The notes: generated by a model from the letters alone, not told the origin. A DNA stretch of 64,000 nt from Phycisphaerales bacterium (GCA_014238205.1 JABABM010000003.1:62001-126000), one strand, 5' to 3'; shown: positions 36,973-43,280, counted from the first letter of the stretch. Numbers and translations are program-made.

Positions 36973-37224
36973 ATGACGACCAGAGAGATACCCAGCTTCA
37001 GCGAAGTATTCGATCGGTACTGGAGTGATGACGTGTTCCGGCACAAGTTCCTCTCCGATCCTTCCGGCATGCTGAGGGAGAACAGGTTGATGAATGTCGA
37101 GGGCATGGAGATGGAAATAGTGGATCACAAGGAGAACATGATCCACCTGATCTTCCACTCGGACTCTCCTGACAAGATCCACCTCGTCTCGCATCGGCAT
37201 CCTCGTCTTTCTGATCGCGGGTAA
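36973..37224 (+). CDS. Small protein resembling the NHLP (nitrile-hydratase-like leader) RiPP precursor family
   Basis: An 83-residue protein with a strong Shine-Dalgarno (GGAG, 36964-36967). Residues 11-62 follow the NHLP leader pattern, derived from the nitrile hydratase alpha subunit. A short N-terminal stretch leads into YWSDDVFRHKFLSDPSGML (17-34), NVEGMEMEIVDHKENMIHLI follows (41-60), and the domain ends in a beta strand. The tail (63-83) has no Gly-Gly or Ala-Gly cleavage site and no Cys. It is His-rich (His52, 58, 62, 70, 74 and 76) and contains an imperfect repeat, MIHLIFHS and KIHLVSHR. No maturation enzyme or peptidase-transporter is nearby. Its stop overlaps the next start (TAATG), so it is translationally coupled to a c-haem protein gene. 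Family call rests on pattern memory; function unknown. Confidence 0.65.
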   Translation: MTTREIPSFSEVFDRYWSDDVFRHKFLSDPSGMLRENRLMNVEGMEMEIVDHKENMIHLIFHSDSPDKIHLVSHRHPRLSDRG

Positions 37225-39596
37225 TGACAGGCCTGCTGATACAACTGCTTCCTGTCTGCATGCTGCTCCAGCCGGTGGATCACATCTCGGTTCCTCCCGG
37301 ATTCGTCATAGAGCGAGTCGTCGAAGCCGCTGATGAACATGGGTCATGGGTATGCATGGACTTCGACTCCAGCGGCCGCCTGGTCATCGCACCGGAGCGA
37401 GGCCGATTGCTTCGGCTGACATTCTCAGGAGGCGAAGTGGCAACAGAGCGTTTCGATGCGCCTGTCGAACGTGCGCAGGGCCTTCTCCACCACGGCAACA
37501 GCCTGTACTGCAATGTAAATGCTCCACTGGATGAAGGTGGTGGCCTCCATCGACTCCGGGATCTTGACGAAGACGGTTCATTTGAAACCCATGAACAACT
37601 TGCAAGGTGGGATTGGGGTGGAGAGCACGGTGCACATGCAATCGTGCTTTCACCGGGCGGTGATTCTCTCTACCTCGTACATGGAAACCATGTGCGACCG
37701 CCCGAAGGCATCCTGGATACATCACCGCTTCGTAACTGGGACGAGGATATTCTCCTTGAACGACTCTGGGATCCGCGTGGTCACGCCGTAGGTCGCATGG
37801 CTCCAGCCGGATTCGTGATGGAAACCGACTTCGACGGTGATTCCTTCCGGTTGATCGCCGGTGGGCTTCGCAATGCCTATGACATTGCATTCAATGAAGA
37901 GGGGGAGTTGTTTACCTATGACGCCGACATGGAGTGGGACATTGGAACGGGGTGGTACAGGTTCCCCCGCATCGTGCACGTAGTCTCCGGTGGGGAAACG
38001 GGATGGCGAGGAGGCAGCGCAAAATGGTCCGATGCATGGCCGGATGTAAACCCCCCCGTGGTCGAGACTGATGTCGGTTCGCCAACAGGCATTCGCTTCG
38101 CCCATGACACCTCCTTCCCGGAGCCCTGGCGATCTGCTCTGCTCGTTGGCGACTGGTCCTGGGGCCGCGTGCTTGCAGTCCACCTGCAGCAGGATGGTGC
38201 GGGGTGGAAAGGGACCATCGAGCCGTTCATCAAGGGACGTCCGTTCAATATCACGGATCTTGATGTTGGTCCGGATGGGCACCTCTACTGCATCACGGGT
38301 GGTCGTGGAACCTCCAGCGCTCTCTACCGTGTCAGGTGGGTCGGGAATCAATCCACGGCAAGCAATCCCGTTGTACCTAGCGACAATCTCGAACTGCGGT
38401 ACAGGCGGATAATTGAATCATGGCATGGGGATGCTGATCCCGATCGCCTTGATGACATGTACATCGCGCTGGGGCATGATGACCGGTCAATCCGCTTTGC
38501 AGCACGAGTTGCGCTTGAACGACTGGACCCCGACTCCTGGTCACAGATGGCCTTGCAGGAAACTGAACATCGTCTCGCAATTGAGCTCCTTGTTGCACTC
38601 GCGAGGGTCGGCAGTGACCTGCAGAGAGCTCGTGTCGTGGAGCGTGTTGAGACTCTGCTTCGGGATTCGGTGACGCCCAAGCAGGAAATCGGTCTGCTGC
38701 GCGCAGCCATGATCGCGATGTCTCGGGCTGATACCGCCGACGAAGAGGCCCTTGGCCGGCTTGGCGAGATTCTCGTGCAGGACTATCCCACGGGCTTGCC
38801 GGAACTTGATCGCCTTCGTGAAACACTCCTGGTCGCCATGGATCATCCCGATGTGGTCCCGTTGACTCTTGATGCCATTGACAACACGTCCTCGCACGCT
38901 GCACAGCTTCAGTACGCTCTTCCCCTTCGACTGGCAACGCACTGGAGTGAACTGGACCGTGCCCGATTCCTCGAGTGGACGCAGGCTGCGAGACGTTTCG
39001 AGGGTGGCCTGAGTATCCAGGGGTTCGTCGAGGGAATTGCCCGACCGATTCTTGGAGATGACCTCCCGCCACTTCCAGCAGGCAAGGCCGCTGATGAGGA
39101 ACCCCTTCCCTCCCTGCATGCCTGGACCATGCAGGAGGTCCGACCGCACCTTCCCAGGCTTGACGAACCATCGAGATCAATCGAGCGTGGCCGGGTCGCC
39201 TACGAGGAGGCCCTGTGCAGTCGATGTCATCGCTTCGGTTCCAGCGGAGGTGACCTCGGGCCGGATCTCACGGCCGCTGCCGCCAGGTTTTCGCGTCATG
39301 ACCTGCTTGAAGCGATCCTGAAACCTTCTGCTCACATTACCGATCAGTATGCAACGACCCGGATTCAACTCGTTGATGGAACATCGCTCACCGGGCGAAT
39401 CATGGAAAGAGATGAACAGTACATCCAGCTGCTCATCGATCCGTATGGAATGGAGAAGGTGCCTGTCCGGATTGCCGACATTGCCGATGAGACGCCGGGT
39501 GAAGCATCCTTCATGCCGGCTGGTCTGGTCAACGGCCTGACACTTGAGCAGCTGCTCGATCTCCTGCACTACATGGAACATGAGCAGACGCCCTGA
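37224..39596 (+). CDS. Secreted PQQ/sorbosone-dehydrogenase-like protein with HEAT-like middle and C-terminal c-type haem domain
   Basis: A 790-residue exported protein of the type common in Planctomycetota and Verrucomicrobiota. A short signal (1-17) is followed by a six-bladed-propeller-like domain (about 20-385: VPPGFVIERVVEA, GGLRNAYDIAFNEEGELF, LDVGPDGHLYCITGG), which in relatives binds PQQ or sugar. An alpha-helical HEAT-like region (about 400-640) and a haem domain follow, with CSRCH (Cys665, Cys668, His669), DLGPDLTAAA, ILKPSAHITDQY and a likely axial Met764 in FMPAGL. It is probably a periplasmic electron-transfer dehydrogenase; the substrate is unknown. Coupling to the NHLP-like gene is unusual. 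Confidence 0.82.
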   Translation: MTGLLIQLLPVCMLLQPVDHISVPPGFVIERVVEAADEHGSWVCMDFDSSGRLVIAPERGRLLRLTFSGGEVATERFDAPVERAQGLLHHGNSLYCNVNAPLDEGGGLHRLRDLDEDGSFETHEQLARWDWGGEHGAHAIVLSPGGDSLYLVHGNHVRPPEGILDTSPLRNWDEDILLERLWDPRGHAVGRMAPAGFVMETDFDGDSFRLIAGGLRNAYDIAFNEEGELFTYDADMEWDIGTGWYRFPRIVHVVSGGETGWRGGSAKWSDAWPDVNPPVVETDVGSPTGIRFAHDTSFPEPWRSALLVGDWSWGRVLAVHLQQDGAGWKGTIEPFIKGRPFNITDLDVGPDGHLYCITGGRGTSSALYRVRWVGNQSTASNPVVPSDNLELRYRRIIESWHGDADPDRLDDMYIALGHDDRSIRFAARVALERLDPDSWSQMALQETEHRLAIELLVALARVGSDLQRARVVERVETLLRDSVTPKQEIGLLRAAMIAMSRADTADEEALGRLGEILVQDYPTGLPELDRLRETLLVAMDHPDVVPLTLDAIDNTSSHAAQLQYALPLRLATHWSELDRARFLEWTQAARRFEGGLSIQGFVEGIARPILGDDLPPLPAGKAADEEPLPSLHAWTMQEVRPHLPRLDEPSRSIERGRVAYEEALCSRCHRFGSSGGDLGPDLTAAAARFSRHDLLEAILKPSAHITDQYATTRIQLVDGTSLTGRIMERDEQYIQLLIDPYGMEKVPVRIADIADETPGEASFMPAGLVNGLTLEQLLDLLHYMEHEQTP

Positions 39597-39614: not shown

Positions 39615-42600
39615 TCAGGGCGTTGCCCTGATGGGGCCTGTTTCCTGAATCCGGGTTCCATCGGCATCGTAGAACTGGATGATGTATGGACCGACGCCAG
39701 GAACCCCGATCGGCACAGACTCCCCCCACAATGGTCTCGCAAGGACTGCCTCTCCAGTCCGAGCATCGAGTACACGCACGCGTGACGTTGCCGCGGGGAT
39801 GTCCTTGATGAAGTGTGACTCATGGTTGCCGTTTTCCAGCAGGTCGAATGCCACAGGCCAGCCCGGGTACTGCTCTGCACCCTCCCGGGATGGGTCCTCC
39901 CATCGAGGCCAGCACTCAAAAAGCACGTCGCCCTCGTCAAGGTTCACCCGAATGATCCCGTACCCGGGCATCCGATCGTGCAAGTTGGTTGGTTCACGAC
40001 CCGAGCGAGCTGGGTTCGCAACGGCCGCGACCGAGAGCAGGTTTCCGAATCCGTCTTCGAAGTCTCCCGTGTATCCCGGGTCGCCGGGCTTCCTGTTGTC
40101 GCCCTGCTTCGGTGGATACCAGCGACGAGGCCACGTGTTGGCGATGGCGGGAACACAGAATGCCCATCCCGCATCCTGGTGTTCCTCGATCCCGTACTGC
40201 ACGGTTGATCCCAGGTGCTGATCTCCACAGACATGGAAGGCGAAGCCCTTCCGCATGGAACGAAGTGCATCATCTCTTGGACTTTGAGGCCAGCCATTGG
40301 AATCTCCGTCCATCGCCAGGGACCAGTTGGTTGGCAGATCATCGGGATCAGGAAATGCTCCCCTGGCGGAAGCGCTCCCGGAGCTGCCTCCAGGCGGCAG
40401 GGTGTTCAGGTTTCCAAACAAGGTCTGTGAAAGAACCCCCTTGGCACGAATACCCGGCTTCCATTCGGTCGCCCACTCCTCGAAGAATGCTTCCTGCCGT
40501 TCGCCAAGGAGTTCCGCGCCTTCCACATCAGCATCCTGTCCCTTGAATCCCTCCGCCTGCGGCCAACCATTCCTGAAGTTGCCTGCAGGAACAGCGACCG
40601 TGGGAGATGACTTGAACATCCTGTCTGCGAGGATCGCGAAACTGACCCCTCCCCAGTCAAGGCTCGTGTAATAGACGCTGATGTCCTGCTCGATGGGTGT
40701 TGGATCGACGGGATCGGGAAGGTGACTGGTCTGTGTCCGGTGAACGGCGTTGACGAATTGAGGCGGCATCCTGTACCCGCCACTGTCCTGTGCCGTAATG
40801 TCGCCTGTCTTCACTGCACGCTTTCCGCCCGCTCCCCAGATGTTCCCGTGGTAGACGTCGTGGTCATCCGGAATCGTCACCGTCGGCCGATCCCTGGTGA
40901 GTTCACCAAAGGACCAGCAGAAGCGATACCACTTGTAGAGGTAATCCAGGATTGCGATCTCGGTGCTTCGATTGTCGACGGGAACCAGGTCACCCTCGTA
41001 GATCTGGTCACCTGCGAAGAAGAGCATGTCAGGATCATGCCACTCGACGGATTCGACCGTCTCCTTGTGCGGCATCCATATCCCGGTGTGATTCCACTTC
41101 AAATCACCCGTGAATACCTTCTGGCAGTTCATGGCTCCCAGCACCAACTCGTCATCATCCGGCTCGGCCCGAAGCAGCCCTTCGTACGGGGCCGCATCAC
41201 CAAGAAGCACCCTGTATAGAGCCTCAACGTCGGGATCACGCCCCTCCACCCGGAATCGAAGCGTGCATGCGTCTGGATCCATCCGAGCTGTTGCAACCTC
41301 GATCCAGTCGCTGCTGCCAGCCTCCATGATCTCCAGGGTGCCAACTCGTTCATCTTCCACACCTAGCGGTGGAAGTTGGGCGGTCAGGTTCAGTACACCA
41401 TCATCGATGGTGTACTGGGTCATGAGCACCGGGCCCCAGGCCCGCTCGGGATATGGAAGCAGCAATCCTCCCTGGAGTTGGAGATCATCGAACCAGTGCC
41501 CTGTCGAGGAACCAGGTGGCCCCCTGTGAGAAACGAGCGCAATCCCACCCTCTATGAGACCTGGGTCAACTTGATCGGCCTCGGCCTCGTCGACCACTTC
41601 TCCATCAAGATCGAATGCCCGTACCTTCAGTTGACACGGTCCTTCATTGCAGTCGATCGTGATTTCCAGAGTGCCCTCGAACGGTGTTTTGAGCCTTGGC
41701 GGCTTGCCTTGACGGGTGGCCGTCTCCAGGGCCGGAAGGTGCGCCTTCTCCACCTTCACGCCGATTGCCCAGGATGACTGTGAGCGAAGGGGCTTGTCGT
41801 TTCTCCGAATGTGAACCTGGCCGGTTTCATCAACAAGGCAGAGAAGTCCTCCATCCTCAGCCGGCACGTGGTGCGTCTGGGCTGTCAGTCGATGATCGAC
41901 ATGCCGACCACCTGCGCCGATGAGCAGGCCCGACCAGGCTCCCGGGATCGGCGTTCCAGCAGAATCAACCGCCCCGGTCCGAACCGAGAGTCGTCCTCCG
42001 AGGGACGCGTCCGACAGGGTGTGTGTCAGGACGTGGCATGTCCTTTGTGGTCGAGCAGCCGCCTGTTCAATGCACTCGATGCGCCCCCCCTTTGCCTGCC
42101 AGTCCTGCAGGCGATTGGCCCAGAAAGATGGACCGATCCAGGTTCGATCCGGCGTTGCATTCCAGTCCCATGTGGCCTCAGGACTTTTCCTTCGATGCAT
42201 TTCCCGCTGGATGCATGCCGATGCCACATCATCACAGGCCTTGGCGGCGGCATCACCTCCCTGATTACAGGCAACGAGAACAGCCATGTCTCTTGCTGGC
42301 GCAATCCACGTCACGCAAAACCATGTCGTATTACTACCCGCATGAGTCAGGGCTGTCCCACCCGCCCAGCCTCGCTCTGCATTTATCCAGCCGAACCCGT
42401 AGGACGCATCGTCGCCTGGAGCCGGAGACTGCAGGGTCTTGAATGTATCCGTTGAAAGAAGGTCATGACGACCTTGCCCACCCCTGAGGTGTGCTGCAAT
42501 GAACCTGCTCCAATCCTCAATCGTGCAGTGAACACGGCCCGCGGGAGTTATCGCGGGAGGATTGTCTGCCTCGGGTGACGAGGGAGTCCCATCCTTCTCG

Positions 42601-43280
42601 TGGCCGTTTGGGTGCGCAGGCCCTTTTGACAAAGGCGCAGCATATCCTGCGGTCGTCATGCCCAGCGGTCCAAAGATCTCCTTCTGCATGAGTCGGTCAT
42701 ACGACCCGTTTCCCGCAACTGCGCACATGTGTCCTGCAACGGTGAACCCGGAGTTGGAATACTCGTATTCTCCGGCCGGACATGCTGGCTCCAGCAACAG
42801 AACTTCCTCTACGTAGGCTTGTATCTGCGTGGACTGTGTTCCATCTCGCGACCATGCCTTTCTCCATGCCTCCCTGGGAGACTGCTTTGGCATACCTCCC
42901 CGATTTGTCAACAACTGCGCAAGTGTGACGTCGCGCCAGCCATCGTGCATCTCCACGTCCTGGAGCACCTGGGAGATAGTGCTGTCCCAGGAAAGAATTC
43001 CCTGCTCGACCAATCTCGCAGCAAGGGTGGCCGTCATCGCCTTCGTGCAGGAACCAAGGTGCCAGTAGTCGTCAAGCGTGACCTGCTCGTTGCCTCCGCG
43101 AACACGAACGCCCGCGGCAGCCACCTCGATGATGCGATCGCCTCGAAGCGTGAGTGCCGCCATGGCGGGGATGTCATGCTTGTCGATGGCAGCCTGAATC
43201 ACTTCTTCAAGCGACTGTCCAGAAGCCTGGAATGTCGCAAGAAGCGGCAGCATCATGATCAGGGATATGGAGAATCGCAT
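39615..43280 (-). CDS. Fusion of a serine beta-lactamase-like hydrolase and a PhoD-like phosphatase
   Basis: A 1221-residue exported protein (signal about 1-22). Domain 1 (about 23-365) is a class C beta-lactamase/esterase fold with Ser77-x-x-Lys80 (SCTK), Tyr174-x-Asn176 (YSN) and the HAG triad (313-315). Domain 2 (about 370-610) is a concanavalin-like beta region (PDRTWIGPSFWANRLQDW to GHWFDDLQLQG). Domain 3 (about 700-1180) is PhoD-like, with metal-site motifs FFAGDQIYEGD (755-765), IPDDHDVYHGNIWG (803-816) and HVCGDQHLG later. PhoD proteins are secreted Ca/Fe phosphodiesterases. The two enzyme halves are continuous, with no stop or frame change. tRNA-Leu lies 50 bases upstream on the same strand. 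Confidence 0.85.
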   Translation of the reverse strand: MRFSISLIMMLPLLATFQASGQSLEEVIQAAIDKHDIPAMAALTLRGDRIIEVAAAGVRVRGGNEQVTLDDYWHLGSCTKAMTATLAARLVEQGILSWDSTISQVLQDVEMHDGWRDVTLAQLLTNRGGMPKQSPREAWRKAWSRDGTQSTQIQAYVEEVLLLEPACPAGEYEYSNSGFTVAGHMCAVAGNGSYDRLMQKEIFGPLGMTTAGYAAPLSKGPAHPNGHEKDGTPSSPEADNPPAITPAGRVHCTIEDWSRFIAAHLRGGQGRHDLLSTDTFKTLQSPAPGDDASYGFGWINAERGWAGGTALTHAGSNTTWFCVTWIAPARDMAVLVACNQGGDAAAKACDDVASACIQREMHRRKSPEATWDWNATPDRTWIGPSFWANRLQDWQAKGGRIECIEQAAARPQRTCHVLTHTLSDASLGGRLSVRTGAVDSAGTPIPGAWSGLLIGAGGRHVDHRLTAQTHHVPAEDGGLLCLVDETGQVHIRRNDKPLRSQSSWAIGVKVEKAHLPALETATRQGKPPRLKTPFEGTLEITIDCNEGPCQLKVRAFDLDGEVVDEAEADQVDPGLIEGGIALVSHRGPPGSSTGHWFDDLQLQGGLLLPYPERAWGPVLMTQYTIDDGVLNLTAQLPPLGVEDERVGTLEIMEAGSSDWIEVATARMDPDACTLRFRVEGRDPDVEALYRVLLGDAAPYEGLLRAEPDDDELVLGAMNCQKVFTGDLKWNHTGIWMPHKETVESVEWHDPDMLFFAGDQIYEGDLVPVDNRSTEIAILDYLYKWYRFCWSFGELTRDRPTVTIPDDHDVYHGNIWGAGGKRAVKTGDITAQDSGGYRMPPQFVNAVHRTQTSHLPDPVDPTPIEQDISVYYTSLDWGGVSFAILADRMFKSSPTVAVPAGNFRNGWPQAEGFKGQDADVEGAELLGERQEAFFEEWATEWKPGIRAKGVLSQTLFGNLNTLPPGGSSGSASARGAFPDPDDLPTNWSLAMDGDSNGWPQSPRDDALRSMRKGFAFHVCGDQHLGSTVQYGIEEHQDAGWAFCVPAIANTWPRRWYPPKQGDNRKPGDPGYTGDFEDGFGNLLSVAAVANPARSGREPTNLHDRMPGYGIIRVNLDEGDVLFECWPRWEDPSREGAEQYPGWPVAFDLLENGNHESHFIKDIPAATSRVRVLDARTGEAVLARPLWGESVPIGVPGVGPYIIQFYDADGTRIQETGPIRATP

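Follow-up and report, generated by a model that had tools for sequence, protein, structure and literature searches.

Is a small gene for an NHLP-like protein, whose stop codon overlaps the start of a gene for a secreted c-type haem protein, the gene of a natural-product precursor, of a partner of the haem protein, or of something else? The question is raised by a locus in a 64,000-nucleotide stretch of a Phycisphaerales bacterium genome (GCA_014238205.1 JABABM010000003.1:62001-126000), which was analysed as a whole and is hereafter called the window. NHLP proteins are treated as RiPP precursors, by automatic genome mining as well. A first-pass annotation of the window had instead read the small protein as a repurposed NHLP domain serving the haem protein encoded downstream. 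The features on which the following argument draws are these (positions are those of the window):

36973..37224, plus strand: gene for an 83-residue small protein of the NHLP clan, without signal peptide, Cys or Gly-Gly (open reading frame, profile homology, six orthologues, purifying selection, model)
37003..37155, plus strand: region homologous to NHLPs and nitrile hydratase (NHase) alpha, residues 11-61, three helices and two strands (TIGR03793, hhalign, model)
37144..37206, plus strand: His-rich C-terminal segment, residues 58-78 (HLIFHSDSPDKIHLVSHRHPR) (conservation in six species; model strand 68-74)
37129..37158, plus strand: stretch without synonymous change, codons 53, 55 and 57-62 (codon comparison of four diverged species)
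37222..37226, plus strand: TAATG stop/start overlap, translational coupling (sequence; similar overlaps in relatives)
37224..39596, plus strand: gene for a 790-residue, predicted secreted, PVC-type CxxCH c-haem protein (TIGR02603, TIGR02604, PF00034, low-confidence model)

The small gene begins with an ATG at 36973 behind GGAAGGAG and ends with a TAA at 37222-37224, and the haem gene begins with the ATG at 37224; the two genes share one base. The 83-residue frame, its start, its stop and the TAATG overlap are all as the first-pass annotation had described them, and the start methionine is aligned in all six orthologues of the small protein. Its six histidines in residues 52-76 were also recovered, at positions 52, 58, 62, 70, 74 and 76. 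Those at 58, 62, 70 and 76 are invariant across the six species, and those at 52 and 74 are not. The 83 residues contain no Cys, and no signal peptide was seen by inspection. Near the overlap of the two genes, there was no Rfam match of note, and promoter and terminator signals did not exceed those of shuffled sequence. The gene convergent with the haem gene (39615-43280, minus strand) codes for a 1221-residue secreted protein with beta-lactamase-type and PhoD-like phosphatase domains, and a counterpart of this protein (1221/1220 residues) is encoded near the gene pair in two relatives, G184 and G001.

Membership of the small protein in the NHLP clan had been proposed from a residue pattern, with an HMM search as the recommended check. 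Taken alone, the window protein scored 21 bits against TIGR03793 (E=2.3e-4, residues 11-61), and the cut-off of 50.9 bits was not reached. Its matches to the Os1348 family, TIGR04509 and NHase alpha were all weak and fell in the same region: the Os1348 family of the NHLP clan (NF038399) gave 16.8 bits over residues 11-37, short of the 40-bit cut-off, and residues 11-60 aligned to positions 43-92 of the NHase alpha profiles (PF02979, TIGR01323). The orthologues, however, all matched TIGR03793 (6/6; best E=6.3e-7). A profile built from the six members and compared with a PDB sequence set recovered NHase alpha 1v29 (E=4.2e-7) and the proteusin precursor 8tb1 (E=1e-6). Alignment of this profile by hhalign to 39 canonical NHLPs from this bacterial family, of which almost every one has Gly-Gly, gave a probability of 99.1% over 61 columns (3-63). 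The six orthologues scored 37-49 bits against the canonical-NHLP family profile, where the best of 1000 shuffles reached 9.8. With the orthologue set in place of the single sequence, homology to the NHLPs is firm. Judged by profile, the small protein is a member of the NHLP/NHase-alpha clan. A functional NHase fragment was considered and rejected, given that the protein has no CxxCSC motif (no Cys) and that the match goes no further than position 92 of the 189 in the profile.

An AlphaFold2 model of the small protein (pLDDT 78.5, from an alignment of four sequences) contains helices at residues 9-18, 20-28 and 30-36, strands at 46-53 and 56-62, and an extra strand at 68-74. When this model was searched with Foldseek, 8tb1 ranked first (probability 0.89, rmsd 2.4 over 53 columns, E 0.36), and VIA-align of the model with 8tb1 gave Z 3.4, a value tied with unrelated chains and not above background. 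With E and Z at these levels, the fold match supports homology only alongside the sequence profiles, and structure-only confirmation of the NHLP fold was set aside.

The small gene is under selection at the level of its protein. Its dN/dS is ~0.1-0.4 where dS is measurable, and dN in its C-terminal part is 0.05-0.28 between species with high or saturated dS. This indicates that the small gene is not a chance ORF. The same pattern bears on the idea that the ORF is a mere translational-coupling leader, or a decaying former NHLP, with no function of its own. Such an idea would fit the overlap of the two genes and the one copy, in relative G008, that adjoins an eroded gene; strong purifying selection and the 23 residues that are invariant in six species contradict it, and we regard it as the least probable of the readings considered here. 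Chance ORF and plain coupling leader were both rejected on the substitution pattern.

If the small protein were a RiPP precursor, the features that follow the leader fold should be recognizable. Gly-Gly and a hypervariable core are the mark of NHLPs (Haft et al. 2010, PMC2887384), and the order in proteusins is strand 2, a proline-rich region, an LXXXXL helix and a double glycine (Nat Commun 2024, PMC10858898; MprE7 structure 8tb1). Canonical NHLPs in the same bacterial family read ...VHITLPAPPSGHxDLSDEELSNAAGG, then a variable core. In the small protein, strand 2 continues straight into HSDSPDKIHLVSHRHPR. A Gly-Gly leader/core boundary and an LXXXXL after strand 2 are absent in all six orthologues, the Gly-Gly of G001 being only its last two residues. 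Nor was a hypervariable core seen; residues 58-78 are the best-conserved part of the protein, with 12 of 21 positions invariant in six species as compared to 11 of 57 in residues 1-57, and in every species pair dN of the C-terminal segment is below that of the rest of the small gene. The first-pass description of a protein with no Gly-Gly or Cys core is thus borne out.

The annotation had noted no maturase, and LanM and YcaO are missing from the genome as a whole, not just from the neighbourhood. We searched the six genomes carrying the small protein and four control relatives with canonical Gly-Gly NHLPs (G007, G034, G029 and G165). Neither LanM nor an NHLM peptidase-transporter was identified genome-wide in any of the six, where generic ABC transporters scored at most 330 bits and were without the N-terminal peptidase part; YcaO was identified in none of the ten genomes. 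The four controls encode LanM (514-576 bits) and full-length NHLM_micro_ABC1 (TIGR03796; 747-833 bits, from profile position 1-2). The maturase search covered LanM and YcaO, and completeness is at least 95% for four of the six genomes, including the window's, and 65-70% for G001 and G002. The window's genome contains no second NHLP-like match. An ordinary RiPP precursor served by a remote maturase was rejected on the absence of LanM, YcaO and the transporter in the six and the presence of LanM and the transporter in the controls.

The control genomes are also rich in canonical NHLP lanthipeptide precursors with Gly-Gly (L032, L033, L030, L102 and others), with 14 matches in G007, and many of these precursors lie far from the enzymes.

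As read from its sequence and genomic setting, the small protein is not a working RiPP precursor. A cryptic one would require an unusual, conserved His/Ser/Asp-rich core processed by an unrecognised maturase. NHLP-clan proteins are usually RiPP precursors, and a number of NHLPs come from species in which no TOMM or lanthionine enzyme has been recognised (PMC2887384); Os1348, which is also without the usual motifs, has been linked to antibiotic activity in Pseudomonas (PMC7726476). Set against these precedents are a C-terminus that is conserved instead of variable, the missing Gly-Gly and LXXXXL, the absence of LanM, YcaO and the NHLM peptidase-transporter from all six genomes, and neighbours that are secreted enzymes, not maturases. 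We therefore consider a cryptic precursor improbable.

What, then, of the haem protein? The second gene had been described as encoding a signal peptide, a propeller-like domain, HEAT-like repeats and a CxxCH haem domain. The haem domain stands: TIGR02603 matched residues 653-786 with 95.9 bits (E=1.9e-27; cut-off 68.15 bits), PF00034 scored above its cut-off, and the CxxCH motif is CSRCH at 665-669. The propeller and alpha repeats are on less certain ground. TIGR02604 matched residues 110-356 with 63.1 bits and its 122.2-bit cut-off was not reached, and a weak similarity to GSDH, together with a structure model of low confidence (pLDDT 53), suggests that the protein may combine a GSDH-like propeller with alpha repeats. 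A short hydrophobic, signal-like segment lies at the N-terminus, and secretion is predicted for this protein. In the window (37224-37290) and in the orthologues, these signal-like N-termini are very short and have no Lys or Arg ahead of the hydrophobic stretch. With secretion predicted for the haem protein and no signal peptide on the small one, a mature periplasmic complex of the two is unlikely.

To follow the pairing across species, we searched genomes from the same family (181), order (400), class (397) and phylum (392), these sets overlapping. The tail-bearing small protein was identified in six species only, namely those of the window, G001, G002 (genus g1), G008, G184 (genus g7) and G111; no further member was found in the order, class and phylum sets, in a genome contig scan or in one viral contig scan. 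The contig scan placed three of the small-protein genomes as Phycisphaerae/Phycisphaerales MAGs. The neighbourhood survey that the annotation had suggested did find the pairing in relatives: in four species the end of the small gene runs into the start codon of the CxxCH gene (TAATG in the window, TGATG in G001, GTGA in G002 and in G184). The four coupled haem proteins form one clade with 100/100 support and a long stem. Since they are monophyletic, the pairing of the small gene and the haem gene arose once.

These observations are what lend weight to a dedicated cytosolic chaperone or cofactor-handling partner that binds the nascent or pre-secretory CxxCH haem protein. The stop/start overlap has been kept in four species despite divergence of the haem proteins to 55% identity, and the coupled haem proteins, as a clade, lack the extra N-terminal region of most relatives. 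However, several genes flanking the pair are also syntenic, which suggests that some of the conservation of the pairing is inherited gene order, and haem-protein homologues in the bacterial family mostly do without the small gene.

Two loci also speak against such a dedicated partner. In G008 (L026, G008:C60, 264-760) the small gene is intact, with every invariant residue kept, but the haem gene is a remnant consisting of a GTG start, eight signal-like residues and a frame-shifted piece. The piece reads DPGRIVVASERGPLRRIEL, the counterpart of GRLVIAPERGRLLRL in the propeller, and no other homologue of the haem protein was detected in this genome at E 1e-20. The changed residues of the remnant argue for real decay over an error of MAG assembly, the other possible cause. 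In G111 (L098, G111:C17, 3213-4006) the gene for a 95-residue small protein overlaps the gene of an unrelated, secreted DUF6265 lipoprotein (ATGA), and a homologue of the haem protein (42%) is encoded elsewhere in the genome, uncoupled and without a small gene. A divergent amidase gene (PF01425) lies upstream of the small gene in G111.

A secreted-protein gene is overlapped in all five intact loci, with two different partners among them. The exceptions in G008 and G111 mean that the constant feature is coupling to a gene for a secreted protein and not to the haem protein as such. The annotation's proposal of a specific partner of the haem protein is not supported, given these two loci; as far as gene order can tell, a dedicated haem-protein partner is too narrow a reading, and we judge it unlikely, though less so than a cryptic precursor.

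Upstream of the small gene in genus g7 lies a gene for a secreted lactonase-DUF3500 protein. The G184 copy (L097, G184:C35, 8934-10877) codes for a secreted lactonase (SGL)-DUF3500 fusion and overlaps the small gene by ATGA. With the gene of the dehydrogenase-like haem protein this makes a three-gene operon, which hints at sugar oxidation combined with lactone hydrolysis.

One stretch of the small gene is conserved at the level of nucleotides. Codons 53, 55 and 57-62 do not differ by a single nucleotide among four diverged species (8/8 codons unchanged), as compared to 3/22 in the rest of the small gene; in the haem gene, taken as baseline, the longest run of identical codons is 3 in 339 conserved columns. 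The baseline product for the block is 1.1e-5, or ~2.5e-4 when corrected for start positions. A 19-mer within it, GATCCACCTGATCTTCCAC (37140-37158), is identical in five species, including G008, and does not occur in G111. No consistent RNA fold was found around the block. High expression with a strong codon preference could account for the block, as could an RNA or DNA element.

The position of this block, just upstream of the conserved C-terminal motif, would also accord with a regulatory nascent chain, in which the C-terminal SxRHPR stalls the ribosome before the overlapping start and tunes translation of the downstream gene, much as in SecM or arrest peptides of the RAPP type. The best conservation lies 5-17 codons ahead of a stop codon that shares bases with the start codon of a gene for a secreted protein, whichever gene follows, and the R-x-P motif recalls the RAGP/RAPP arrest motifs (PMC10951233, PMC7897499). 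Yet the downstream genes, for a CxxCH haem protein and a DUF6265 lipoprotein, do not encode components of protein localization, the signal or transmembrane segment of known monitors is missing from the small protein, its N-terminal part is conserved as a folded domain, and G008 keeps the small gene without its downstream gene. An arrest peptide is, on this sequence evidence, very unlikely.

The reading that we prefer, with a probability of roughly 0.55, is that a proteusin-type leader domain has been domesticated and serves, unmodified and in the cytosol, as an accessory or ligand-binding protein that is co-expressed with secreted enzymes. The lineage would have lost the proline linker, the LXXXXL helix, Gly-Gly, the variable core, the maturase and the exporter. 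In their place it carries a conserved His-rich segment, which in the model probably forms a third beta strand and a tail. The small protein would most likely stay in the cytoplasm, folded and unmodified, in an accessory role, and may bind a ligand, metal or protein through a putative surface of H58/H62/P66-D67-K68/H70/S73/R75-H76-P77-R78. It would be made from one mRNA with secreted enzymes: the c-haem dehydrogenase-like protein in the window, this protein plus the lactonase-DUF3500 protein in genus g7, or the DUF6265 lipoprotein in G111. Its most natural job may be to aid these products before export, or to sense a linked ligand. The persistence of the small gene without the haem gene in G008 suggests that help before export would not be the sole function, unless the loss is recent.

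Reuse of a leader in this manner is plausible given that NHLP leaders are structured protein-binding modules; recent work describes NHLPs as protein-protein engagement domains (PMC12455567). That a RiPP precursor came first and was domesticated later we infer from the rarity of the tail-bearing form, and not from a rooted tree.

NHLPs without a recognised maturase were on record as early as 2010 (PMC2887384), and an atypical small protein of the NHLP clan has a forerunner in Os1348 (PMC7726476). The novelty of the present family is that a conserved tail consistently stands in place of the RiPP tail, that the genomes lack the known pathway, and that the gene is translationally coupled to those of secreted enzymes. 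A literature search for NHLP together with cytochrome returned nothing of the kind. The small protein belongs to the NHLP clan and is not an NHLP RiPP precursor. Whether a RiPP leader domain has here become a stand-alone, unmodified protein with an NHLP fold and a His-rich tail, encoded beside secreted haem and sugar enzymes, we would put at even odds. If true, the NHLP clan would have a use that is neither RiPP-related nor enzymatic, of which we know of no described example.

The same bacterial family holds true lanthipeptide producers and a lineage that keeps the fold under selection without the known pathway. The small-protein family offers a clean way to ask if the leader fold is itself a useful binding module, in agreement with the engagement-domain view of NHLPs (PMC12455567). 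It also carries a warning that a match to NHLP need not mean a natural-product precursor.

Compared with known systems, the small protein is like the NHLP/proteusin precursors in a homology over residues 3-63 that takes in three helices and two strands, in an equal layout from the start to strand 2, and in the presence of canonical members in the same bacterial family. It differs from them in having none of the proline linker, LXXXXL helix, Gly-Gly and variable core, and in having a conserved His-rich tail instead. Unlike NHase alpha, it lacks the whole metal-site region (CxxCSC) and has no enzyme context. Its likeness to arrest peptides of the RAPP/SecM type is confined to the position of the motif and its R-x-P character. 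The haem protein resembles the PVC-type CxxCH proteins (TIGR02603/TIGR02604) in its C-terminal haem domain and in a weak N-terminal match to the propeller; most relatives in the bacterial family carry a long extra N-terminal region, whereas the coupled haem proteins are a short form that makes up the separate, long-stemmed clade. Os1348 of Pseudomonas sp. Os17 is, like the small protein, an NHLP-clan protein (~85 residues) without standard leader and core motifs that is structured alone, but its own neighbours, a predicted acetyltransferase, a peptidase, a SagB-type dehydrogenase and an efflux system, are unlike those found here.
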